A stretch of DNA of 64,000 nucleotides from Polynucleobacter sp. CS-Odin-A6 (lineage in GTDB: Bacteria > Pseudomonadota > Gammaproteobacteria > Burkholderiales > Burkholderiaceae). Each line of letters opens with the position of its first letter. Position 1 is the first letter of the stretch. Shown piece by piece: positions 25,057 through 39,519 of this stretch. The position numbers and the translations under genes are program-made. The stretch is taken from contig NZ_JACVPD010000001.1 of the NCBI RefSeq assembly GCF_018882095.1, forward strand, positions 744,001 to 808,000, given 5' to 3'. Under the pieces are notes generated by a model. That model was not told the DNA's origin. It worked only from the letters and a program-made list of their open reading frames with translations, and ran no database searches.

Positions 25057-25761
25057 TTAAACAGCGCAATACTTCTGCTGAATCTCTTCATTGTTTAACA
25101 AATTCTGGGCGGTATCATGAAATACAATTTCCCCTTGATCGAGAATATAGGCACGGTCAGATATTTTCAGTGCCTGCTGTACGTTTTGTTCAACCAAAAG
25201 AATAGTTAATCCCTGTTCTTTGAGCTTGGCAAATAATTCAAACATTTCGTCCACCAAGACCGGCATGATGCCCTCTGAAGGTTCATCTAGCAGGATAACT
25301 TTAGGTTTGCCAATCATCGCCCTTGCAATTGCCAGCATCTGCTGCTCGCCACCAGACATGGATGTGCCATCCTGATGCAATCTTTCTTTTAACCGCGGAA
25401 AGGTTTCGGCGATTTCATCAACCAGGGCACTCATATCACCACGATTTTTCTTAGCAATCACGCCCAACTCTAAATTTTCTTTGACAGTCAGGCCTGGAAC
25501 AATGCGACGATCTTCCGGTACGTATGCTAGGCCAAGGTGATAGCGCTCATGAGCGGCAAGATCTAAGAATGAAGTGCCATCAATTGAGGCTTTCCCCTCC
25601 CTTTTAGAAAGTAGTCCCATTAAGGAGCGCAAGGTAGTGGTTTTACCGGCGCCATTTCTACCCATTAAAGTAACAATCTCCCCTTTGTTTACTTCGAGGG
25701 AGACGCCTTGAAGAATATGACTACGGTCGTACCAGGCATTTAACTTTTCTACGCGCAACAT
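25057..25761 (-). CDS. livF: Branched-chain amino acid-type ABC transporter ATPase LivF
   Basis: A 234-residue ATPase of the HAAT family. Walker A is GRNGAGKTTT, the signature is MSGGEQQMLAIARA and Walker B is ILLDEPSEGI. LivF-type proteins have the short C-terminus seen here. It is the last gene of the minus-strand LivKHMGF set and is separated from livG by 13 bp. Substrates of HAAT systems in this group range from branched-chain amino acids to aromatic acids and amides. Its neighbourhood suggests an aromatic or heteroaromatic compound. Confidence 0.9.
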   Translation of the reverse strand: MLRVEKLNAWYDRSHILQGVSLEVNKGEIVTLMGRNGAGKTTTLRSLMGLLSKREGKASIDGTSFLDLAAHERYHLGLAYVPEDRRIVPGLTVKENLELGVIAKKNRGDMSALVDEIAETFPRLKERLHQDGTSMSGGEQQMLAIARAMIGKPKVILLDEPSEGIMPVLVDEMFELFAKLKEQGLTILLVEQNVQQALKISDRAYILDQGEIVFHDTAQNLLNNEEIQQKYCAV

Positions 25762-25774
25762 ATATACACCTTCA

Positions 25775-26530
25775 TTAACCTTGACCTAGGTACACCCGAC
25801 GTACCTCCGCATTATTCTGAATTTCTTCTGGAGTACCTTCAGCCAAAAACTCGCCATGATGAAGCACAATGATGCGCTTGCATAAACCCATAATGAGTTT
25901 CATCTTATGCTCAACCAAAATCACGGTTCTTTCATTGGCTAGCGTACGGATGAGGTCCATCATGACCAGCGTTTCCTCGGGAGACATTCCGGCGGTTGGC
26001 TCATCTAATAAGAGTAGGCTGGGATTGCAGGCGAGGGCCATTGCAATTTCGAGAGCCCGTTGTTGTCCGTGCGCCAGGTCGCCACTTTTCTTATTACGCA
26101 GATGCTCTAAGTTAACGCGACGTAAGAGTTGGTCTGCAAGCTCAATGGGTTCCGCATAGCTTTGTGCATTTCGTAAAAAGTTATACCGAGCAGTTTCCAT
26201 TTGGGCTGCTACGCGAACATTCTCATGAACAGTCAGCTGCTTAAATACATTCGTAATCTGAAAGCTTTTGGAGATGCCAATGCGGGCAAATTCATATTGC
26301 TGCATGCCGGTAATGTCTTTGCCATTAAATAAAATTTGACCGCTTGATGGTGGGAATGCTCCACTGAGAACGTTAAAGAAAGTGCTTTTGCCTGCACCAT
26401 TCGGACCAATGATGGCTGTTAGGGAGCCAGGCATAAAGGTGGTAGAGACATCCTGCAAAGCCTTGAATTTCCCAAAACTCTTGCTGACATTGCGAGCCTC
26501 AAGGATGGGGGTTTGATTTGGGCTACTCAT
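25775..26530 (-). CDS. livG: Branched-chain amino acid-type ABC transporter ATPase LivG
   Basis: A 251-residue ATPase paired with LivF. Walker A is GPNGAGKSTFFN, the signature is LAHGQQRALEIAMAL and Walker B LLLDEPTAGMSPEE. The ATG at 26530 is preferred because it overlaps the livM stop by ATGA; a frame extending to 26578 would read into livM. The C-terminal HGEFLAEGTPEEIQ segment is typical of LivG. It works with LivF as the heterodimeric motor of the importer. Confidence 0.9.
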   Translation of the reverse strand: MSSPNQTPILEARNVSKSFGKFKALQDVSTTFMPGSLTAIIGPNGAGKSTFFNVLSGAFPPSSGQILFNGKDITGMQQYEFARIGISKSFQITNVFKQLTVHENVRVAAQMETARYNFLRNAQSYAEPIELADQLLRRVNLEHLRNKKSGDLAHGQQRALEIAMALACNPSLLLLDEPTAGMSPEETLVMMDLIRTLANERTVILVEHKMKLIMGLCKRIIVLHHGEFLAEGTPEEIQNNAEVRRVYLGQG

Positions 26531-27489
26531 GATTTTGAATCCAGGTTCAAATTGAGCTTGCTTAAGATGGTTCCCCAAATTCCCTTCGGGAAGAACAAGA
26601 CAAAGAACATAAAGACGAACCCAATGACAGCCATCCAGTGTTTAGTAAAGGTGGTAACCACGTCTTCCAGATACAGCATCACTGCGGCGCCAACAAATGG
26701 GCCAAAGAAAGTTCCCATACCACCCAAGATACTCATCATGATTGCCTGTCCTGACTGTAGGTAGTGTAGGGAGTCAATTGGCACAATGGAAAGGTGGAGG
26801 GCACGTAAGGATCCTGCTAAGCCACAGATTGCTGCTGATAACACAAATACCAGCAGCTTTGTGCGAGTGACATCAAATCCACAAGAAGCAGCGCGTTTTT
26901 CATTTTCACGAATCGCTTCCATTACCGCACCCAGTGGTGATTTGAGAATGCGCGAGATCAGCCAAATGGCAATAACGACAAAGAAGAGAATGATGTAGTA
27001 CTTCACTAGTGGATTCAGAAAATCTACCGGAATTCCCAAGATATTAAATGAGTCAACACGGACACCCCTTAAGCCATTCTCGCCACCAGTCAAGCTTTCT
27101 GCTTTATAAAAAATATAGAAAACAATTTGACCTAATGCCAGAGTCACCATGGAGAAGTAGATGCCTCGCGTTCGAATCGCCAAGAAACCCATGAGTAAGC
27201 CACCGATAGCTGCACCAATCACACCGATAAGAATGGCAGCGCCCCAGGGCATCGAGTAGTGGACAATTCCAATTCCAGTGAGATAGCTGCCGATACCGAG
27301 GAAGGCGGCATGGCCGAAAGAAAGCAGCCCCATATAGCCAAATAAAAGGTTAAAGCCCATGGCAAACAAGCCAAAGATCAAGATGTTGATAGCGAGTGCC
27401 TCGTAAGGCATGATGAACGGAAATAACATCAAGAAGAGTGCGCTAACCAGAACGCGATGACGTGCGATCAGTTGGAAAAATGATTTCAT
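26527..27489 (-). CDS. livM: Branched-chain amino acid-type ABC transporter permease LivM
   Basis: A 320-residue polytopic permease of the LivM group. It contains the conserved GLLSFGHAAFLGIGSY, the AIRTRGIYFSMVTLALGQ segment and the GLAGSLRAL loop. The C-terminal GGMGTFFGPFVGAAV stretch is typical. It forms the membrane channel with LivH. The gene lies between livH (12 bp) and livG (4-bp overlap) in a single transcription unit. Confidence 0.92.
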   Translation of the reverse strand: MKSFFQLIARHRVLVSALFLMLFPFIMPYEALAINILIFGLFAMGFNLLFGYMGLLSFGHAAFLGIGSYLTGIGIVHYSMPWGAAILIGVIGAAIGGLLMGFLAIRTRGIYFSMVTLALGQIVFYIFYKAESLTGGENGLRGVRVDSFNILGIPVDFLNPLVKYYIILFFVVIAIWLISRILKSPLGAVMEAIRENEKRAASCGFDVTRTKLLVFVLSAAICGLAGSLRALHLSIVPIDSLHYLQSGQAIMMSILGGMGTFFGPFVGAAVMLYLEDVVTTFTKHWMAVIGFVFMFFVLFFPKGIWGTILSKLNLNLDSKS

Positions 27490-27501
27490 AAATATACGGG
27501 C

Positions 27502-28386
27502 TTAACCCATCGCCCCCGCTTTACCAAACAAGCCTTGCGGTCGAATTAAGAGCACTACCGCCATCAAAATAAAAATGGAAAGTTCTGATAGGTCTGGGAA
27601 GAAGAGAGATGTCATGCTGTAGACCACGCCAACCAGAAGGCCGGCAAGAACTGCACCTAAGGGGGAGCCCATGCCACCGACGACTGTCACAACAAATGAC
27701 TCGGCCAAGATGGGGATACCCATCTCAGGATTAACGGAGCGGGTAGGTGAGGCGAGTATTCCGGAGAGACCGGCAATCGCACAGCCAAGACCAAAGACCA
27801 TCAGCCATACCTTGGCAATATCTACGCCAAGTACTTTGACAATATCTTGATCAACAGCGCCTGCCTTAATGATGAGACCATACCGCGTCTTTTGAATGAA
27901 GAACCAGACTGCAAAAATAATGAGCGCTGTAGCGGCAATTAAAAAGAGGCGATATTTTGGAAAGAAGCCAAAGCCAACATCAAGAGATCCTTTGAGCCCA
28001 TCCGGGGTAACAGAAGGAAGTCCCTCGATTCCGAAGGTGACGCGCATTGCTTCGATCAACACGTAAGATAAGCCGAAAGTGAGGAGTAGCGGATAGTCGA
28101 GACCTCTTCCATAGAGAGGGCGAACTAGGAAGCGCTCAGTCAGCAGTCCCAGTCCCCCGGTAACAATAGGAGTCAGAATTAAGCTAAACCAGAAGTTACC
28201 AGTGACGCCTAAAAAGTAGACGCCCATGAATGCGCCCACCATGAAAAATGCGCCGTGCGCAAAGTTCACCACATTGAGCATGCCAAAAATCAGGCATAAG
28301 CCTAATGCGAGAAGTGCATAAATGCTACCCAGGGCAATTCCCGTGAGTAACTGCATGCAGAGAAGTTCAAATGTAAGGCCGGTCAT
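27502..28386 (-). CDS. livH: Branched-chain amino acid-type ABC transporter permease LivH
   Basis: A 294-residue permease of the LivH group. ALLALGLCLIFGMLNVVNFAHGAFFM is represented by its conserved core GMLNVVNFAHGAFF, and the C-terminal GGMGSPLGAVLAGL loop is typical. Together with LivM it forms the translocation path. The gene is separated from the binding-protein gene upstream by 88 bp that hold two inverted repeats, one terminator-like, so the binding protein may be expressed at a higher level than the membrane parts. Confidence 0.92.
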   Translation of the reverse strand: MTGLTFELLCMQLLTGIALGSIYALLALGLCLIFGMLNVVNFAHGAFFMVGAFMGVYFLGVTGNFWFSLILTPIVTGGLGLLTERFLVRPLYGRGLDYPLLLTFGLSYVLIEAMRVTFGIEGLPSVTPDGLKGSLDVGFGFFPKYRLFLIAATALIIFAVWFFIQKTRYGLIIKAGAVDQDIVKVLGVDIAKVWLMVFGLGCAIAGLSGILASPTRSVNPEMGIPILAESFVVTVVGGMGSPLGAVLAGLLVGVVYSMTSLFFPDLSELSIFILMAVVLLIRPQGLFGKAGAMG

Positions 28387-29814: not shown

Positions 29815-31053
29815 TTAATACGACTCTGGAACTGCTTTTCCTGCTGCCAATAAGCTGCTGATATCTACAGCAGTTTCTGCCATTACGGTATCTGCATTTC
29901 TGCGCAAACTATTGCCATCCCTTGTGCCTTTACTACCTTGCGATTGCATATAACGTCCTAAATATTGGGCTCTGGCAACGACCTGCTGCCCCAGTGTAAG
30001 CCGTTCTTGACTATAGGCTTCTAGAGCAGCAGGGGTTGCACCTAATTGAGCTATGTGATGCGCAATAGCCATAGCTTCATCTCCGGCTTTAGTAACGCCC
30101 ATACCGACGTGCGGCCGACCAACAAAGGCTGCATCACCCATTAAAGCAATTCTGCCAAAGACAATTTGTTCTGACCGCACATCATAAATAGTCTGCAAGA
30201 ATGGGGATGCTGTCTTCTCTAGAATTTCTGCATATTGAGGTGCCAGAATTTGATGAGCGACTTTCCGCATTTCCGCGATGTGTTTCCATGACACTTTCAG
30301 CGGAGGAATGCCAGTCGGATAATAGTGACCATCCGCATCCGTTAAGAGTTTGATGAGCTCCTCATGTTCAGATGCAGGGCGGTACCAAACAAAGTTGTAG
30401 CGGCGCTTTCCTGGTCTAGTATCGTTACCAGACCCTGCAACTGGGTAACCTAGCATCTGTTCGCCATTCGGCAGGCAGAATCCAAAATAATTAAAGAGCG
30501 TTTCTAGGGTGTAATTGGATAAATGACTCTCATCACAAACACCACGCCACGCAATGTATCCAGCGTACTCCGGCTGAATCTGTGGCGCCACTTGGGCTCG
30601 TACTACAGAGCGTATGCCATCGGATGCTATCAACAGTTCAGCTTGATAAGAGCTTCCGTCTTCACACTTAACCTGAACGCTATGAGCATCTTGAGTAACG
30701 GTCTTTACATTCTTACCCTGCAAATAACGCTCGCTCGGAAAATGCTCTTTGAGAAGGTGGTACAGCCTGCTCCACGAGGTTAAGGTTTGTGAGAGTGGCA
30801 TTTCACCTAAGCTTTCACCATCAACGCCGAGAGTGATGCGTTTAGATACACAAACCCCGAGGCTGTCATCAACGGTAATACCAGCTGCACGCAAGGCATC
30901 CGCAAGGGCATCATGAGTCACTATCCCAGCACCGCGGCCATCTAGTGAGCCCAGCGTCTTTTCTAGTAGAGTGACGTCGTGTCCTTGGCGCAACAATATA
31001 TTGGCTGCAAATAAGCCTCCAAGTGATCCGCCGACGACGATGATTTTAGCCAT
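29815..31053 (-). CDS. FAD-dependent monooxygenase, 2,6-dihydroxypyridine hydroxylase-like
   Basis: A 412-residue class A flavoprotein hydroxylase. The FAD-binding N-terminus (VVGGSLGGLFAANIL) and the second FAD motif (GDAAFVGRPHVGMG) are clear. RGAGIVTHDAL, GYIAWRGV and the LGYPVAG segment resemble the 2,6-dihydroxypyridine 3-hydroxylase of nicotine degraders more than p-hydroxybenzoate hydroxylase or HpxO. Such enzymes add a hydroxyl to an activated hydroxypyridine ring with NADH and O2. The similarity is from memory of motifs, so the exact substrate is open. The VOC gene ends 6 bp upstream and the molybdenum hydroxylase operon is divergent from this set. Confidence 0.8.
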   Translation of the reverse strand: MAKIIVVGGSLGGLFAANILLRQGHDVTLLEKTLGSLDGRGAGIVTHDALADALRAAGITVDDSLGVCVSKRITLGVDGESLGEMPLSQTLTSWSRLYHLLKEHFPSERYLQGKNVKTVTQDAHSVQVKCEDGSSYQAELLIASDGIRSVVRAQVAPQIQPEYAGYIAWRGVCDESHLSNYTLETLFNYFGFCLPNGEQMLGYPVAGSGNDTRPGKRRYNFVWYRPASEHEELIKLLTDADGHYYPTGIPPLKVSWKHIAEMRKVAHQILAPQYAEILEKTASPFLQTIYDVRSEQIVFGRIALMGDAAFVGRPHVGMGVTKAGDEAMAIAHHIAQLGATPAALEAYSQERLTLGQQVVARAQYLGRYMQSQGSKGTRDGNSLRRNADTVMAETAVDISSLLAAGKAVPESY

Positions 31054-31059
31054 CGTTAT

Positions 31060-31518
31060 TTATGCAGCCTTAGCATCTAGCGCTTCTTTTTCTTCAGCAG
31101 GGTAATTTAGCTCAATCACGATCCCATTAGGATCATCTACAAAGATTTGATGTAATTTGATCGCGGGTACAGTGCGCTGTCTACAAGGCACACCTAACTT
31201 TTCCAGTAGAGCAATTTTGGCTTCCAAGCCTTTAGCAAAGAAGGCAATGTGATCAACTCCTCCGGAGCCATAGAGTGAGGCGGGATCCCGTTCACCAAGG
31301 TATTGTTTGAGGCCATTAGGATCATTCTTATCAATCGCAATTAAATGCAAGACTGCGTTGGCCCAATCGCTGTCATCGCCGTTATATAGCCAGACTCCGG
31401 GGAAGGGAAAGTCAGGGCGGGGACCAACGGTCAGACCGAATATTTCGGTATAGAACTTAGTGGTTTTTTCAATCTCTAAACTGCGGATAGAGAAATGATT
31501 TAGGCTTAGGTTCGTCAT
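31060..31518 (-). CDS. VOC (glyoxalase/dioxygenase superfamily) protein
   Basis: A 152-residue single-module vicinal oxygen chelate protein. Metal ligand candidates are H8 (LNHFSIRS), the His of GGVDHIAFF and the Glu of GIVIELNYP. GPRPDFPFPGVWLY is common in the glyoxalase-like group found with aromatic-degradation genes. It could be a dioxygenase, isomerase or glyoxalase; no activity can be chosen. It is 1 bp downstream of the TetR gene and 6 bp upstream of the FAD monooxygenase gene, so all three are one transcription unit. Confidence 0.85.
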   Translation of the reverse strand: MTNLSLNHFSIRSLEIEKTTKFYTEIFGLTVGPRPDFPFPGVWLYNGDDSDWANAVLHLIAIDKNDPNGLKQYLGERDPASLYGSGGVDHIAFFAKGLEAKIALLEKLGVPCRQRTVPAIKLHQIFVDDPNGIVIELNYPAEEKEALDAKAA

Positions 31519-31519
31519 A

Positions 31520-32224
31520 TTATTGTTTACCAGTAGTAAATAAAGTATTTGCTGAAATCAGGTAGGAGCGAATCCGATCCTGAATAATTTCTTGCTCAGT
31601 ATTGGGATTGCCAGAGTCATAAATAGCCTGACCATAGATCCAGCGGCGCATTCCGATATAAAAAATACCACCATGCAGGCCCATTAAAAACTCTAACTCA
31701 CGCTGAGAAGGTTTGCTGCGTGAGCTGCGACCACAATATTTACGGGTTTCACGAATGAGGCGAGGCAATAAACGATCACGTAACAACTGGAAGAATCGGT
31801 CGCTAATGGAATGATCGCTCAGGCCAGAGAAAATCAGAATGCGCACAAAGTCATAGGTGAGAACCGTATTCGAATAGTCGACATAAAAAGCATTGAGCTT
31901 TTCTTCGGGAGATAAATCTTTATCGTCAAGAAGATCTTCCCATTCAGGCTTCCAACGTGACTCAAACACATTTTCATAGACTGCCTTGATTAAAGCGTCT
32001 TTAGTAGGGAAGTAGTGATAAAGCAGGGTATGCGTGACACCCAGACCCTTTGTAAGATTTCTGAGTTGCCCATCAATCCCATGCTTAGCGAAATACTGAA
32101 TCGCACGATCTAGTATTTGACGCTTGCGATCTGTTGTACTCATTCGACGACGAGTAGGCGACGCAATTACAGCCACATCTGTCACGGCATTATTTATAAA
32201 GGCGGGGTCTTGAGAAAAACTCAT
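31520..32224 (-). CDS. TetR family transcriptional regulator
   Basis: A 234-residue regulator with an N-terminal extension before the DNA-binding domain. The helix-turn-helix lies around residues 35-80 (LDRAIQYFAKHGIDG, then LTKGLGVTHTLLYHYFPTK), typical TetR sequence. The C-terminal domain is the ligand-sensing part and is not assigned. It is the first gene of the minus-strand monooxygenase unit and is divergent from the coxG-type operon 111 bp away, so it is the natural candidate repressor of both. Two dyad elements lie in the gap. Confidence 0.88.
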   Translation of the reverse strand: MSFSQDPAFINNAVTDVAVIASPTRRRMSTTDRKRQILDRAIQYFAKHGIDGQLRNLTKGLGVTHTLLYHYFPTKDALIKAVYENVFESRWKPEWEDLLDDKDLSPEEKLNAFYVDYSNTVLTYDFVRILIFSGLSDHSISDRFFQLLRDRLLPRLIRETRKYCGRSSRSKPSQRELEFLMGLHGGIFYIGMRRWIYGQAIYDSGNPNTEQEIIQDRIRSYLISANTLFTTGKQ

Positions 32225-32245: not shown

Positions 32246-32293
32246 TTTGGCCTTATTGACCAAAAGTTAAATAATGGTACATTGTTGAACAAT
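32246..32293. promoter_or_regulatory. Putative TetR operator dyads between the divergent operons
   Basis: Two inverted repeats lie in the 111-bp gap between the TetR gene and coxG. TTTGG and CCAAA (32246-32250 and 32260-32264) have a 9-bp spacer. ATTGTT-G-AACAAT (32281-32293) is a perfect 13-bp dyad. The second has the compact form common for TetR operators. Either could control both directions. This is inference from position and symmetry only. Confidence 0.4.
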
Positions 32294-32335: not shown

Positions 32336-32803
32336 ATGGAACTAAATGGCGAGCAGTTGATTGCCGCTCCAATCCCTGATGTATGGAAGGGTTTGAATGA
32401 TATTGATGTCCTCGCCAAGTCTATTCCAGGATGCGAAGAAATTAGCCGCGTCTCCCCGGAGGAGATTCACGCCAAAGTCATGTTTAAGATCGGTCCCGTC
32501 AGGGCCAGATTTGCAGGAAAACTATTCTTGAGTGATGTCATCCCAGATCACTCCTGTTCAATGGCATTTGAGGGTTCAGGTGGCGCGGCGGGATTTGCAA
32601 AAGGCCGCTCAAGAGTTGAATTAAAGGCTGCTGAAGGTGGAACTTTGGTTTCGTATACAACCGAAGCTTCCATTGGAGGTAAGTTGGGGCAAATTGGTGG
32701 GCGTTTAATTAGCGCTTCTGCTAAAAAGATTGCAGATGATTTTTTTCAGCGATTTGCAAAAGAATTAGGTGGTGAAGCAACACCTTTGGAGTCAGACGCA
32801 TAG
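32336..32803 (+). CDS. CoxG-like SRPBCC protein (carbon monoxide dehydrogenase subunit G family)
   Basis: A 155-residue SRPBCC-fold protein of the CoxG family. The N-terminal LNGEQLIAAPIPDVWKGLND and the IPGCEEI segment are hallmarks. CoxG-type proteins are accessory to molybdenum hydroxylases, helping membrane attachment or assembly. The start has a strong AAGGAG site. It is the first gene of a plus-strand operon continuing with FAD, iron-sulfur and molybdenum subunits. The presence of this helper argues for an active, assembled hydroxylase. Confidence 0.87.
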   Translation: MELNGEQLIAAPIPDVWKGLNDIDVLAKSIPGCEEISRVSPEEIHAKVMFKIGPVRARFAGKLFLSDVIPDHSCSMAFEGSGGAAGFAKGRSRVELKAAEGGTLVSYTTEASIGGKLGQIGGRLISASAKKIADDFFQRFAKELGGEATPLESDA

Positions 32804-32852: not shown

Positions 32853-33707
32853 ATGAAATCAGCAGCATTTGATTATGCAAAACCGCAGGTCCTCAGTGAA
32901 GCGCTTGCTTTGCTCACTGAGGCTGGCGAAGATGCGCAATTGATCGCAGGCGGCCAGACGCTGTTGGCCACGCTTAATCTTCGCCTTTCTGAGCCTAGTA
33001 TGCTGATTGACATTACTAACTTAGATGAGCTCAAGGGCATTGCCGTTATCGGCGAACAATTGCGGATCGGAGCCTTAGTCACCCATACGGAGATTGAAGA
33101 CTCCAAATTGATTGCACAACATGCACCGCTTCTGAAGGCTGCAGCACCCCATATCGCCCACAGAGCTATTCGAAATCTCGGTACCTGGGGCGGTTCATTA
33201 GCTTATGGTGACCCAGCTGCTGAGTGGCCTGCGTGTAGCTTAACTCTGAATGCAACCATGTTGATTGCAGGACCAGATGGTGAGCGCCGCATTTCAGCAG
33301 AAGATTTTTTTATTGATCTCTACACCACCTCACTAGAGCCTAACGAAATCCTAGTCGCTACAGAAATACCGATCGCCAATCACAATCAAGTCTTTTATTT
33401 CCATGAATTAGCACGTCGTCATGGAGATTACGCTGTTGCCGGAGTGGCAATGGTTGCTCAAAAGCAAGGAAGCATATTGAGCAATTGTGTTTTTACTTTC
33501 TTTTCAGTTGGCGCCACGCCCATGATGGCCCTCAAGGCGCAGGCATTGGTCGACGGTAAGCCGCTGACCGATGAAGTGATTGCCAGTGCAGTAGCTGCTG
33601 CAAGAGAAGAGCTTGAAGTCATTGCAGACATTACTAACAGCGTAGAAACTAAACAGCATCTCATTGGTGTTTTGTTAGAGCGTGGCTTAAAGCATTTAAT
33701 TGTTTAA
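32853..33707 (+). CDS. Molybdenum hydroxylase FAD-binding subunit (CoxM-type)
   Basis: A 284-residue FAD-binding subunit of the xanthine dehydrogenase family. AGGQTLLATLNLRL is the first FAD motif (equivalent to AGGxSLxxxxxxR). RNLGTWGGSLAYGDPAAEWPA contains the second, with TWGGS replacing the usual T(I/L)GG(S/N). It transfers electrons from the iron-sulfur subunit to an acceptor. Gene order FAD, 2Fe-2S, Mo is the cox (M-S-L) order. It starts 49 bp after coxG, with a GGAGGAGG-type site. Confidence 0.88.
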   Translation: MKSAAFDYAKPQVLSEALALLTEAGEDAQLIAGGQTLLATLNLRLSEPSMLIDITNLDELKGIAVIGEQLRIGALVTHTEIEDSKLIAQHAPLLKAAAPHIAHRAIRNLGTWGGSLAYGDPAAEWPACSLTLNATMLIAGPDGERRISAEDFFIDLYTTSLEPNEILVATEIPIANHNQVFYFHELARRHGDYAVAGVAMVAQKQGSILSNCVFTFFSVGATPMMALKAQALVDGKPLTDEVIASAVAAAREELEVIADITNSVETKQHLIGVLLERGLKHLIV

Positions 33708-33761: not shown

Positions 33762-34271
33762 ATGAGCTTAAAGAAAAAAATTACGATGACCGTAAACGGT
33801 TTGCTAGTGAATGCAGAGATAGAGCCGCGTCGCCATTTAGTAGACTTTTTACGAGAAGACCTTCATTTGAAAGGCCCGCATTTAGGTTGTGAGCAGGGTG
33901 CTTGCGGTGCTTGCACTGTCAAAGTTGATGGCCAAATTATTCGGGGCTGTTTGTACTTAGCTGTTCAAGCCGATGGACGTGTAGTGGAAACGATTGAAGG
34001 TTTAACCAAAAGTGGTGCATTGGGAGATTTGCAAGAGTCCTTTATGCGCCATAACGCAATGCAGTGCGGCTTTTGTTCCTCTGGGATGCTGCTTGCCGCT
34101 GCTGAATTAATTGAAAAACAGCCTAAAGCAACTCGCAAAGAAGTGCGCGAATGGATTTCCGGGAATTATTGTCGCTGCACGGGCTATCACTCTATCGTGG
34201 ACGCCATTATGTCCGTGCTGGAAGCTCGCGCCAAAGGGGAAAAAATTAAACCTGTGATTGCTCACGCTTAA
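33762..34271 (+). CDS. Molybdenum hydroxylase 2Fe-2S subunit (CoxS-type)
   Basis: A 169-residue iron-sulfur subunit with two [2Fe-2S] clusters. The plant-type N-terminal cluster is held by C43, C48, C51 and C63. The C-terminal helical cluster is held by C102, C105, C137 and C139 (QCGFC and CRC). All eight ligands are present. It passes electrons from the molybdenum site to FAD. The gene lies 17 bp upstream of the large subunit gene. Confidence 0.93.
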   Translation: MSLKKKITMTVNGLLVNAEIEPRRHLVDFLREDLHLKGPHLGCEQGACGACTVKVDGQIIRGCLYLAVQADGRVVETIEGLTKSGALGDLQESFMRHNAMQCGFCSSGMLLAAAELIEKQPKATRKEVREWISGNYCRCTGYHSIVDAIMSVLEARAKGEKIKPVIAHA

Positions 34272-34288: not shown

Positions 34289-36685
34289 ATGAATAAGCCA
34301 GTAGATCTCAAAGGATTAGTTCTTGATCCAGTAACCAATGATCAACGCTATATTGGTAGTAGCGAGCCTCGTCACCAAGCCCGTCGACTGTTAGAAGGTC
34401 AGGGTACTTACGTTGACGATATTCAACTCCCCAGAATGGGTCATGTTGTGTATTGGCGCTCGCCACTAGCCCATATGAAAATTGGCAAAATTCATACTCA
34501 GCAAGCTAGCAAAATGCCGGGTGTATTAGCGATCGTAGATGGCGTCAAAATGGCCGAGCTGTGCAAGCCATGGGTGGCTACCTTAGGTCATTTAGCTGGC
34601 ATGAAATCCGCCCCTCAATATGCCTTAGCGATTGATCGTGCCTGTTGGCAAGGAGAACCAGTAGTAGCGGTTGTTGCGGAAACACGCGCTCAAGCAGAAG
34701 ATGCTTTGCAGTTTATTGAGGTTGAGTGGGAAGAATTACCCGCAGTCGTGTCTATGGAAACCGCCTTAGATGCAGACACGCCAGTGATTCATCCAGAGCT
34801 AGGTGACAACTTATGTTTCACTCGCAGCTTAGACGTTGGTCAGGTAGACGAGGTATTTGCAAGCGCAGACGTGGTTGCGGAAGCTACCTTCGCATTTGGT
34901 CGACATACGGGTGTCACCTTAGAGCCTCGCTGCCAAATTGCCGACTTCAACCCAGGCGATCGTCGTCTGACGGTATATCACTCGCAGCAAGCGCCACACA
35001 TGATGCAAGATTTGTATTGCCGCCAATTTGGTCTATCTGAATCGGATGTGCATGTGATCTGTAAAGACGTGGGTGGATCGTTCGGTATTAAGGTACATGC
35101 CTATCCCGATGACTTTGCTACCGTTGGTTTAGCGATGATGCTCGAGCGACCAGTCAAATTTGTTGCGGATCGATTGGAATCTTTTACAAGTGATATTCAT
35201 GCACGTGAACATCGTATTAAGGGACGCATTGCGGCTAATAAAGAGGGCGATATTCTGGCGTTTGAGATTGACGATCTCACGGCTATTGGCCCTTATTCGA
35301 TGTTCCCCAGAACCAGCGCGATTGAGGGTAACCAGGTAGTCAATTTAGTTGGTGGTCCTTATAAACATCAACATTACAGAGCCAAACTCAATGTGGTGTT
35401 TCAGAATAAAACGCCTACTTGCCAGTATCGTGGTGTGGGGCACCCGATTGCTTGTGCCGTCACTGAGGGCTTGGTAGATTTAGCAGCTCGCAAGTTAGGG
35501 ATGGATCCCTTGGAGTTTCGTAAACGCAATGTGATTCCCGATGATGCCTATCCTTGCTCTGGCATTTCTGGAATTAAGTTAGAAGTGTTGTCGCACGAGC
35601 AATGCTTACGAACCATTGAAAAAATGATGGATTACAAAGCCTTGCTTCAGGAGCAGTCAGAGTTACGCAAACAAGGCATCTATCGCGGCATTGGTTTCGC
35701 AACCTTAATTGAGTTAACGAATCCTAGTCCAGCTTTCTATGGTGTGGGCGGTGCACGCATTGCCTCTCAGGATGGCGCTTCTGCGCGTTTAGATCCTAGC
35801 GGAGTGGTCTCGATCTTGATTGGTGTTGGCGAACAAGGTCAGGGTACCGAAGGCATCTATGCGCAAATTGCTGCTGATGCAGTAGGCCTCTCGATTAAAG
35901 ATGTTCGTATCATTACCGGCGATACCGACGTTACGCCTTACGGTGGAGGTACCTGGGCCTCGCGTGGTGCTGGAGTAGGTGGTGAGGCCGTGCTGCTCGC
36001 TTGCCAAGCACTGCAAGAAAATATCCTGAAACTGGCCGGAGCAATTCTGAGTAGGCCTCCCGAGGAGTTAACGGTGCGCCGTGGCGCGGTGTTGGATAAG
36101 GCGAGCGGAGAATCCCTTTTACCTTTTAGTGAAATTGGCCGGATTGGTTACTTCCGTACGGATACTTTACCGGTAGGATTCTCTGCCGATCTGATGGTGA
36201 CTCGTCACTACACCCAAAAAGACTATCCCTTTATCTTCACCAATGGTGTTCAGGCTTCGTATGTTGAAGTCGACCCCGATACTGGTTTCGTGAAGCTCTT
36301 AAAACATTGGGCGGTTGAGGATTGCGGTCGAGTCTTAAATCCGATGTTGGTGGATGAGCAGGTCCGCGGCGCCATTGTTCAGGGTATTGGCGGAGTCCTT
36401 TTCGAAGAGTGCCTCTATGACGAGAGTGGTTTACTGCGTAATGGCAGTATGGCTGACTATTTAGTACCGATGGCCAACGAGATGCCAGATATTGAAGTCG
36501 CTCACGTAGAGACCCCAACCCAGTCATCGAAATTGGGTGCAAAAGGGGCAGGTGAGGCGGGTACAGCTGGAGCTCCTGGAGCCGTCCAGAATGCCATCAA
36601 CGATGCTCTCGCGCCGTTGAATGCAGCAGTATTTGATCAGCCGATTACTTGTGAAAAGATACTGAAGGCGCTTGGGAAGATCTAA
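34289..36685 (+). CDS. Molybdenum hydroxylase large subunit (CoxL-like, not a true CO dehydrogenase)
   Basis: A 798-residue molybdopterin subunit of the xanthine dehydrogenase family. GGSFGIKVHAYPDD and QAPHMMQDL are cofactor-site segments. E756 in GAKGAGEAGTAGAP is the general-base glutamate shared by the family. The loop that in true CO dehydrogenases carries the AYxCSFR motif here reads CQYRGVGH (C378-H385), close to the form-II AYRGAGR type, so CO oxidation is unlikely. The substrate is probably an N-heterocycle or aldehyde, hydroxylated with water as oxygen source. Its neighbours, a dihydroxypyridine-hydroxylase-like enzyme and an ABC importer, point to a heteroaromatic. The cofactor could be Mo or W; family precedent favours Mo. 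Confidence 0.88.
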   Translation: MNKPVDLKGLVLDPVTNDQRYIGSSEPRHQARRLLEGQGTYVDDIQLPRMGHVVYWRSPLAHMKIGKIHTQQASKMPGVLAIVDGVKMAELCKPWVATLGHLAGMKSAPQYALAIDRACWQGEPVVAVVAETRAQAEDALQFIEVEWEELPAVVSMETALDADTPVIHPELGDNLCFTRSLDVGQVDEVFASADVVAEATFAFGRHTGVTLEPRCQIADFNPGDRRLTVYHSQQAPHMMQDLYCRQFGLSESDVHVICKDVGGSFGIKVHAYPDDFATVGLAMMLERPVKFVADRLESFTSDIHAREHRIKGRIAANKEGDILAFEIDDLTAIGPYSMFPRTSAIEGNQVVNLVGGPYKHQHYRAKLNVVFQNKTPTCQYRGVGHPIACAVTEGLVDLAARKLGMDPLEFRKRNVIPDDAYPCSGISGIKLEVLSHEQCLRTIEKMMDYKALLQEQSELRKQGIYRGIGFATLIELTNPSPAFYGVGGARIASQDGASARLDPSGVVSILIGVGEQGQGTEGIYAQIAADAVGLSIKDVRIITGDTDVTPYGGGTWASRGAGVGGEAVLLACQALQENILKLAGAILSRPPEELTVRRGAVLDKASGESLLPFSEIGRIGYFRTDTLPVGFSADLMVTRHYTQKDYPFIFTNGVQASYVEVDPDTGFVKLLKHWAVEDCGRVLNPMLVDEQVRGAIVQGIGGVLFEECLYDESGLLRNGSMADYLVPMANEMPDIEVAHVETPTQSSKLGAKGAGEAGTAGAPGAVQNAINDALAPLNAAVFDQPITCEKILKALGKI

Positions 36686-37649: not shown

Positions 37650-38243
37650 ATGGCATTCATTTTGACCTCATTAGGGCGCACAGTATTAGCTGGGTTTGTG
37701 CTTCTCGTTTTAATTGTCTTGGCTTTAGGTGGCAACTTTGCTTCCCTTGAATTGCCTTTCTTGTTCCGCTGGATTCACGTCACCGTTGGCGTTATGTGGA
37801 TTGGTTTGCTTTGGTACTTCAATTTTGTGCAGATTCCTTCCATGTCCAAAATCCCAGATGAGCAAAAGCCTGCTATTTCTAAAGTGATTGCACCGACAGC
37901 ATTGTTTTGGTTCCGTTGGGCAGCCCTAGCTACTGTTGTAAGCGGTTTAATCTTGGCCATCTTGAATGGTTATGCACATCAGGCATTTACATTGCAAGCG
38001 CCTTTCCGCGCAATTGGTTTAGGTATGTGGATTGCTATAGTAATGGCCTTCAACGTCTGGTTCATTATTTGGCCAAATCAAAAGCGTGCCTTGGGTATCG
38101 TTGCTGTTGAGCCGGATGTCAAAGCGAAGTCTGCACGCCTTGCAATGCTCACTTCACGCATCAACACAGTACTTTCTATTCCAATGTTATTTTTGATGAG
38201 TGCTCAGTCACACAACTCCACTTGGTTTGTAGTAGTTAATTAA
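37650..38243 (+). CDS. Membrane protein with PuuD-type urate-hydroxylase N-terminal domain
   Basis: A 197-residue polytopic protein resembling the membrane half of PuuD-like proteins (urate oxidase N-terminal domain). FRWIHVTVGVMWIGLLWYFNF and the FNVWFIIWPNQKRALG segment are the main marks; several His and Trp could bind haem. The cytochrome c domain of PuuD is missing, so urate oxidation is not supported. Stand-alone domains of this sort are frequent in aquatic betaproteobacteria and have no known function. A strong terminator follows directly. Confidence 0.72.
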   Translation: MAFILTSLGRTVLAGFVLLVLIVLALGGNFASLELPFLFRWIHVTVGVMWIGLLWYFNFVQIPSMSKIPDEQKPAISKVIAPTALFWFRWAALATVVSGLILAILNGYAHQAFTLQAPFRAIGLGMWIAIVMAFNVWFIIWPNQKRALGIVAVEPDVKAKSARLAMLTSRINTVLSIPMLFLMSAQSHNSTWFVVVN

Positions 38244-38343: not shown

Positions 38344-39519
38344 TCATTCTGATGACAGTATCGGCGGCAATTCTTTAGTGAATGAGCCGCGTTGAGCAGT
38401 AGCGGAGCCTAGCAGGGCAAAGCCGAGAAGCTTGCCATCGCTAGATTCAAAGCGTGCTTCTAGCCCATCTTCAATAGCATTCATTTTCCAGTCACCTACG
38501 GCACCCTTAGCTGGCGGCGAGACAATAGTTGGAAGTGCAGGAGTCTTCACCATGACTGGCATGGCCGGATAGGTAAGCATAGTTACTTGCCCAAGTAGGT
38601 TGGGGGCTAAGGCCCTTGCTGCCTGCATGATGGGCATGACATAAGGCAGCACTAAGCCATCTACTTCAGCGCAGTCTCCAATCGCATAGACATTCTTTGC
38701 GCTGGTTTCTAAATGGCGGTTGACTGTAATGCCAGCACCGGTTGCAATTCCCGCAGCTTTGGCTAAATCCAAGCGGGGTCTTAAACCCACTGCCGATAAA
38801 AATACGTCACTGTTAATAACGGATCCGTTTGCAAGCGTGATGGAAAGGACATCGCCATTGCGATCAATCGATTTGACCGTAGTAGAAAAGTGCCAACGCA
38901 CACCAGCTGCGCTTAATTTTAATTGAAGCATTTGTGCTGCTGCCTCAGGAAGTAAGTGACCTAAAGCTTGTGGGGCCAAATCAATCACATCTACTTCATA
39001 AGAACCTGACACCAGATCATTGGCAAACTCGCATCCAATCAGGCCAGCCCCAAGAATCGCAATCCGTTTTTTACCTTCAAGCGCCTTACGAAAATGGGCG
39101 TACTCTTCTAGATCGTTTACGGTCATGACTGCGTCGGTAGCATTGCCCTCTAAGGGTAAGCGAATTTGATCAGCGCCCAAACCAAGAACTAGCTTTCCAT
39201 AAGCAATAGTGCCCTTGGAGGTTTCAATCGTTTGTGAAGCAGTATCAATAGCAGATACATCGGTTTCGCCGAGAATAGTTAGCTCAAGTTGAGCTGCCAT
39301 GCCCTCGGCATTAGTGGATGCCAATTGTTCCGGAGACTTCTGGCTGGCTAATGCTGTAGAGAGCATGGGCTTTGAATAGAAGTAACCTGGCTCGCGGGTA
39401 ACTAAAGTGATTGCGGTAGTCTTATCGAGTTTGCGAATCTCGCGAATGACGGTATATCCAGCTAGTCCACTGCCAATAATGACAATGCCCGATTGTGAAG
39501 ATTGATTCTGATGATCCAA
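38344..39519 (-). CDS. FAD-dependent NAD(P)H oxidoreductase, rubredoxin reductase-like
   Basis: A 391-residue pyridine nucleotide-disulfide fold oxidoreductase. It has an N-terminal FAD motif (VIIGSGLAGYTVIREIR), a central NAD motif (IAILGAGLIGCEFANDL) and the second FAD motif (NVYAIGDCAEVDG). No redox-active CxxC pair is seen, as expected for rubredoxin reductases. A 55-residue rubredoxin gene lies upstream on the same strand, 97 bp away, which supports the assignment. Together they would pass electrons from NAD(P)H to an oxygenase or a peroxide-reducing enzyme. Confidence 0.85.
   Translation of the reverse strand: MDHQNQSSQSGIVIIGSGLAGYTVIREIRKLDKTTAITLVTREPGYFYSKPMLSTALASQKSPEQLASTNAEGMAAQLELTILGETDVSAIDTASQTIETSKGTIAYGKLVLGLGADQIRLPLEGNATDAVMTVNDLEEYAHFRKALEGKKRIAILGAGLIGCEFANDLVSGSYEVDVIDLAPQALGHLLPEAAAQMLQLKLSAAGVRWHFSTTVKSIDRNGDVLSITLANGSVINSDVFLSAVGLRPRLDLAKAAGIATGAGITVNRHLETSAKNVYAIGDCAEVDGLVLPYVMPIMQAARALAPNLLGQVTMLTYPAMPVMVKTPALPTIVSPPAKGAVGDWKMNAIEDGLEARFESSDGKLLGFALLGSATAQRGSFTKELPPILSSE

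Follow-up and report, generated by a model that had tools for sequence, protein, structure and literature searches.

The 64,000-nucleotide window analysed here, positions 744,001 to 808,000 of contig NZ_JACVPD010000001.1 of Polynucleobacter sp. CS-Odin-A6 (assembly GCF_018882095.1), carries at 34289-36685 the gene for the large subunit of a predicted molybdenum hydroxylase, in a coxG-M-S-L-like order that is open to misreading as carbon monoxide (CO) oxidation. On sequence grounds it is near certain that the large subunit is not a CO dehydrogenase. The best reading, which we hold to be moderately probable, is a molybdenum hydroxylase for a pyridine-type N-heteroaromatic ring that would hydroxylate the carbon beside the nitrogen. 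The core genes, in window coordinates, are as follows.

34289..36685, + strand: large, molybdenum-cofactor-binding subunit, 798 amino acids, with loop Q379-H385, general base E756 and W556
33762..34271, + strand: small 2Fe-2S subunit, Fer2 and Fer2_2 over cut-off
32853..33707, + strand: medium FAD-binding subunit, FAD_binding_5 and CO_deh_flav_C over cut-off
32336..32803, + strand: CoxG-family protein, proposed quinone link, PF06240 at 92 bits (cut-off 22)

The molybdenum-cofactor, FAD and 2Fe-2S subunits all have Pfam domains over cut-off, the glutamate base is conserved, and the fold is that of the xanthine oxidase family. With domains and fold established, the predicted enzyme is a three-subunit molybdenum hydroxylase of this family.

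A preliminary description of the locus had placed CQYRGVGH at residues 378-385, and the motif is found at exactly those positions. We aligned 80 large subunits with MAFFT together with two form I CoxL references (L208, from pHCG3, and L196, from genome G099, at 1509 bits against TIGR02416), quinoline 2-oxidoreductase (Qor) and 6-hydroxypseudooxynicotine dehydrogenase (Kdh). QYRGVGH (379-385) aligns with the AYRCSFR of form I CoxL, Gly382 occupies the position of the copper cysteine, and C378 falls outside the motif, just before it. Conservation was read from 161 distinct sequences of at least 44% identity, the window's included, out of 210 matches, the rest being duplicates or below 44%; exact duplicates were removed and near copies kept, and many of the sequences are close kin. 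At position 382 the set has A in 92, G in 66, S in 3 and C in 0. The earlier claim that AYxCSFR is absent and that the Mo-S-Cu site cannot form is thus supported for this protein.

PMC8305194 gives the loops as AYRAPG in Kdh, AYRGVG in Qor, AYRCSF in CO dehydrogenase, and AFRGFG in nicotinate dehydrogenase and xanthine dehydrogenase. PMC13240472 treats (A/S)YRCS(F/L)R as the mark of form I and AYRGAGR as that of form II, the latter also occurring in other molybdenum hydroxylases. Three positions here do depart from AYRGAGR, as had been noted, with V383 and H385 among them; the third is Q379 and not C378. V383 is ordinary, since the Qor loop is AYRGVG, and the informative, distinctive changes are Q379 and H385. 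As definers of a new pocket, V383 and C378 are rejected, the former occurring in Qor and the latter varying across the 161 sequences (C in 136, G in 16, S in 8, A in 1).

Against TIGR02416, the form I CO dehydrogenase model, the large subunit scores 438.9 bits, with a cut-off of 991. A maximum-likelihood tree was built from 52 of the 80 aligned rows, the 28 omitted ones being close relatives; there the large subunit (as P0001) belongs to a clade of 36 rows supported at 100/100. Both form I rows fall outside this clade and group with two AYRGAGR rows and three AYRGAGR variants (95/83). The phylogeny that had been proposed as a check therefore shows no clustering with form I, and it places the protein outside the AYRGAGR-type rows as well. 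Because of motif, score and tree, CO dehydrogenase is rejected. Within the genus, a protein over the TIGR02416 cut-off occurs in only 1 of 151 genomes (G099), and some match at E 1e-100 in 79.

The possibility that the enzyme oxidizes CO after all, as a copper-independent form, is one to which we give almost no credence. The M-S-L order is that of pHCG3, a CoxG-family gene adjoins, CoxE-, MoxR- and XdhC-type genes lie elsewhere in the genome, and form II activity is called unresolved in PMC13240472; against these stand the missing copper cysteine, the 439 of 991 bits, the separate clade, and catabolic neighbours in the form of an importer and a monooxygenase. Form I CoxMSL of Afipia carboxidovorans pHCG3 shares family, subunits, M-S-L order and a CoxG-family partner with the window's enzyme, whereas its CoxL has AYRCSFR with the copper cysteine and is 29% identical. 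The order had been described as exactly coxG-M-S-L, which is too strong because CoxG precedes the subunit genes here, whereas on pHCG3 it comes after the accessory genes. The expected miscalling as CO dehydrogenase proved true for the CoxG neighbour alone, which bears that name; the plasmid records listed label relatives of the large subunit "xanthine dehydrogenase family", and current annotation therefore does not call them CO dehydrogenase. A taxonomic Polynucleobacter paper gives "carbon monoxide dehydrogenase" for two of four strains (PMC5018217), an entry that may refer to this gene or to another.

Between 28475 and 39519, no coxD/E/F-type gene was detected among the neighbours scanned with NCBIfam and Pfam. 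XdhC-, MobA-, CoxE- and MoxR-like genes form a maturation-type cluster elsewhere in the window's genome (L218, G000:C4:116000-132000), and this cluster and the genome's three inferred molybdenum large subunits are on different contigs. Such genes decide neither for nor against CO.

The loop turns out to be a clade signature. Among the 149 sequences of at least 54% identity, Y380, R381, V383 and H385 are each present in all 149, with Q379 in 146, W556 in 147 and C378 in 136; position 265 is F in 123 and Y in 26. Glu756 occurs in 160 of the 161 clade sequences, with one gap. All 17 positions inspected are invariant in the 52 sequences of at least 70% identity, many of them from the same genus. 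Below 54% identity the signature is looser, residue 385 being R in two sequences, Q in two, I in one and L in one. In the literature searched, we found no match for the loop sequences and no description of the clade.

Structure prediction of the large subunit, which had also been proposed, was carried out with AlphaFold2 from a 40-row alignment and gave a model with mean pLDDT 87.4 and pTM 0.88; confidence is low at 1-38, 262-266, 485-488 and 726-730. The best fold match, ahead of the CO dehydrogenases, is Qor of Pseudomonas putida 86 (PDB 1t3q_B), which is the nearest solved structure by sequence and by fold (Z 45.2, root-mean-square deviation 2.4, 759 residues, 35% identity). The two proteins have the loop residues YRGVG in common. 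Qor differs in having A at Q379, F at H385 and Tyr at Trp556, and it is not a sister in the tree. Kdh of Arthrobacter nicotinovorans (PDB 7dqx) shares GGSFG, RHxGV and the substrate-position Trp, Kdh Trp551 corresponding to Trp556 and Kdh Glu748 to Glu756; it differs in its loop, AYRAPGR, is 28% identical and lies in another part of the tree. PMC8305194 describes Kdh as a three-subunit pyridine-ring hydroxylase and its W551A, E748A and E345A variants as inactive.

The genes flanking the core are the following.

31520..32224, − strand: TetR-family regulator, divergent, PF00440 over cut-off
31060..31518, − strand: small protein of the VOC (glyoxalase/dioxygenase) superfamily, proposed to open the ring in a metal-dependent step, PF00903 over cut-off
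29815..31053, − strand: flavin monooxygenase (FMO) of the PRK07236 group, NF005566 at 462 bits (cut-off 333), with PF22607
28475..29725, − strand: substrate-binding protein of an ABC importer of the branched-chain amino-acid type
25057..28386, − strand: remainder of the ABC importer, with two ATPases (25057-25761 and 25775-26578) and two permeases (26527-27489 and 27502-28386), families assigned to the translations by eye and by likeness to the ABC genes annotated in L031 and L036
36791..37567, + strand: SDR dehydrogenase, 3-hydroxybutyrate-dehydrogenase-like, TIGR01963 at 363 bits (cut-off 307), of doubtful membership in the module

The best solved match of the FMO is 2,6-dihydroxypyridine hydroxylase (DHPH; PDB 2vou), an enzyme that acts downstream in the pathway of Kdh. 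The match has E 1.7e-49 over 372 residues and is distant, and the FMO here adjoins the VOC protein. PF22607 we take to be the domain of DHPH. Across 35 sequences of the VOC protein, H8, H58, H90 and E136 are conserved in 95% or more, as would be required for a metal site. Orthologues of the substrate-binding protein, 56-91% identical, lie beside M-S-L in relatives, and a TetR match is found in 73 of the 129 loci surveyed. Searches of solved structures with the substrate-binding protein, the VOC protein and the FMO named no substrate. The suggestion of a distinct substrate pocket is supported by the clade-wide conserved loop and by this catabolic neighbourhood, which is unlike that of CO oxidation.

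Under the pyridine reading we infer a substrate class, an order of steps, and roles for the VOC protein, CoxG, the importer and the regulator. The branched-chain-type ABC importer would take up the substrate, and the ring carbon next to N would be hydroxylated with oxygen from water and Glu756 as the base. Electrons would reach the quinone pool through 2Fe-2S and FAD, with CoxG possibly taking part. The product of the molybdenum enzyme would go to the FMO, which may add a further hydroxyl as DHPH does, and the VOC metalloprotein would then open the ring, with the TetR regulator presumably governing the divergent units. According to PMC6525221, pyridine α-hydroxylation is usually carried out by multi-component molybdenum enzymes, reported pyridine derivatives pass via 2,5-dihydroxypyridine or 2,3,6-trihydroxypyridine, and a trihydroxypyridine becomes blue on exposure to air; the role of CoxG as a quinone link is stated for CO dehydrogenase in PMC13240472.

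We surveyed 129 loci with flanks of differing length, one locus set being the best 80 of 491, and excluded a broken copy in genome G105 (L114). An ABC-FMO-VOC-TetR unit facing (CoxG)-M-S-L repeats in Burkholderiales, and the module is seen in rearranged form in Stella, Ferrovibrio and some other Alphaproteobacteria. In five loci from Methylobacterium and Propylenella, VOC is absent and the FMO or TetR is instead accompanied by a cupin-like protein that scores below the Pfam threshold. Where the large subunit is at least 70% identical, the FMO is present in 21 of 25 loci and the VOC protein in those same 21, of which 16 have an orthologous ABC importer. At 44-70% identity (104 loci), an LLM-type monooxygenase is found in 15, a PuuE-like protein in 15, and any substrate-binding-protein match, distant ones included, in 40. 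Around 33 FMO loci no further conserved genes were found, the clusters there occurring in at most five loci and being, by eye, mainly housekeeping genes and shadow frames.

Among the 151 same-genus genomes, whose relatedness was left uncorrected, 75 have both the large subunit and the FMO, 3 the FMO alone, 1 the large subunit alone (G092) and 72 neither, with G028, which has a 34% paralogue only, counted as without. Two of the FMO-only genomes are real, because in G051 the contig stops within the module. In G105 (99% complete) the large subunit is split over frames with a TAG (G105:C1:510924-513116) and the FMO is a fragment with a TGA (G105:C1:507048-507557); the two genes have decayed together.

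A bolder reading of these loci is a compact pyridine-degradation module that is undescribed in the literature searched, a proposal we advance tentatively and at a little under even chances. It would combine a QYR(G/A)VGH molybdenum α-hydroxylase, a DHPH-like flavoprotein and a small ring-opening VOC protein, the last replaced by a cupin-like one in part of Methylobacterium and Propylenella. It would also include a CoxG link and a dedicated ABC or TRAP importer, and would occur in about half of the sampled same-genus genomes and scattered over Alpha- and Betaproteobacteria, where plasmid records say only xanthine dehydrogenase family. The substrate may differ across the clade.

Other contexts of the FMO bear on the chemistry. 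In G086 and G122, FMO-VOC occurs without the large subunit, beside an alpha/beta hydrolase (L223:6414-7583) whose best solved match is 2,6-dihydroxypseudooxynicotine hydrolase (2jbw, E 4.2e-28). Together with the DHPH-like FMO, this hydrolase speaks for chemistry on a pyridine. The genes after VOC-FMO in Burkholderia pyrrocinia encode an acetate-type symporter, an Amidohydro_2 protein, another FMO of PRK07236 and a molybdenum hydroxylase with cytochrome c; Paraburkholderia graminis has a similar set, the second FMO not being in the stretch seen. In Cupriavidus basilensis, the ABC importer next to VOC-FMO has a binding protein with 58% identity to that of the window, and no molybdenum hydroxylase is annotated within the 26 kb seen around it. 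PuuE-like proteins of the polysaccharide-deacetylase fold occur in some sister loci, and PMC9304392 connects such proteins with the hydrolysis of cyclic imides that follows trihydroxypyridine in a fungal pathway.

Several observations weigh against the pyridine reading. The CO dehydrogenases rank close after Qor in the fold comparison, from Z 43.3, which is a small gap, and the fold alone is silent on the substrate. The GGSFG stretch of the pocket coincides with the low-confidence residues 262-266 of the model. Kdh (flagged as a long branch) and Qor fall outside the window clade, and the shared residues may therefore be convergent; the essential Glu345 of Kdh has no counterpart in the window protein, as read by eye from the alignment. 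Among solved structures, no relative of the VOC protein was found at E 0.01. For the 2jbw-like hydrolase, found in 2 of 226 sequences examined, acylaminoacyl peptidase comes second and nearly as good (E 1.8e-26). Finally, the FMO and VOC protein are missing from 4 of the 25 closest loci, namely L076 and L180, which have TRAP transporters, L181, where only 1.9 kb upstream is available, and L186, which is unexplained; at 44-70% identity an FMO match is found in 13 of the 104 loci, many of them short. The notion that the FMO always accompanies the molybdenum enzyme is rejected on the basis of these four loci and of FMO-VOC pairs that occur elsewhere without that enzyme.

The profile scores also count against the pyridine reading. 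No NCBIfam equivalog exceeds its cut-off for the large subunit; the XdhA model NF043082 reaches 389 bits, below its cut-off of 780, and the highest score belongs to glyceraldehyde dehydrogenase alpha (515 bits with 790 required). The enzyme could be an aldehyde oxidoreductase or another non-pyridine one, acting on an aldehyde or on some other N-heterocycle, for example a pyrimidine, an imidazole or a pyrrole acid. This agrees with the presence, in some sister loci, of genes for asparaginase, PyrD/PyrK-type and M20 proteins and of LLM monooxygenases, as well as with a HyuA-like protein at L078, identified by eye only. The top score is nevertheless far under its cut-off, and the DHPH-like FMO and 2jbw-like hydrolase speak for a pyridine, so that we regard such a substrate as unlikely for the window's enzyme; it may hold for sister groups, because clade members may differ in substrate.

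Two Methylobacterium plasmids may point to a different substrate. In M. radiotolerans and M. oryzae, uraH, uraH and uraD run in one direction into an FMO orthologue, which starts 93 bases after uraD, with an NCS1 transporter, a racemase and the allantoinase puuE near the FMO. This arrangement, a further point against a pyridine, would fit a purine route there, in which a purine or methylxanthine is hydroxylated and the flavoprotein acts like HpxO, as a 5-hydroxylase that feeds UraH and UraD. The Methylobacterium FMO scores 131 bits against the HpxO model; the cut-off, however, is 500 and the window FMO reaches 96. Just two of the 129 loci have a match to uraD, and the nearest fold is Qor rather than xanthine dehydrogenase. 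The route is further weakened because UraD is missing from the window's genome (99.96% complete), where the OHCU decarboxylase domain PF09349 was not found by a search that was positive in 4 of 14 control genomes. We consider a purine substrate quite improbable here. On the M. radiotolerans plasmid itself (L031:7425-10206, the uraH, uraH, uraD, FMO run), the FMO could perhaps hydroxylate urate.

If the pyridine reading is correct, genomes of about 2 Mb would hold a dedicated uptake-and-breakdown route for an N-heterocycle, and QYR(G/A)VGH would be a simple marker for it. The enzyme group is widespread and little-studied, and its role is probably to add oxygen to an N-ring for breakdown as food.

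The stretch separating the divergent TetR and CoxG genes contains a perfect palindrome, ATTGTTGAACAAT, at 32281-32293. It occurred in 0 of 100 shuffles, the pattern having been chosen after it was sighted, and is degenerate in three of five aligned relatives. For this palindrome and for the promoter-like matches alike, conservation is too low for us to claim an operator.

Downstream of the core, a close orthologue of the SDR dehydrogenase (at least 83%) adjoins the large subunit in same-genus loci only. The same holds for a membrane protein at 37650-38243 that matches Urate_ox_N in part (55 bits, cut-off 27) and lies beside the module in same-genus loci only. It is followed at 38344-39519 by a NorW-like NADH:flavorubredoxin reductase (326 bits, cut-off 392) with a rubredoxin-binding domain.

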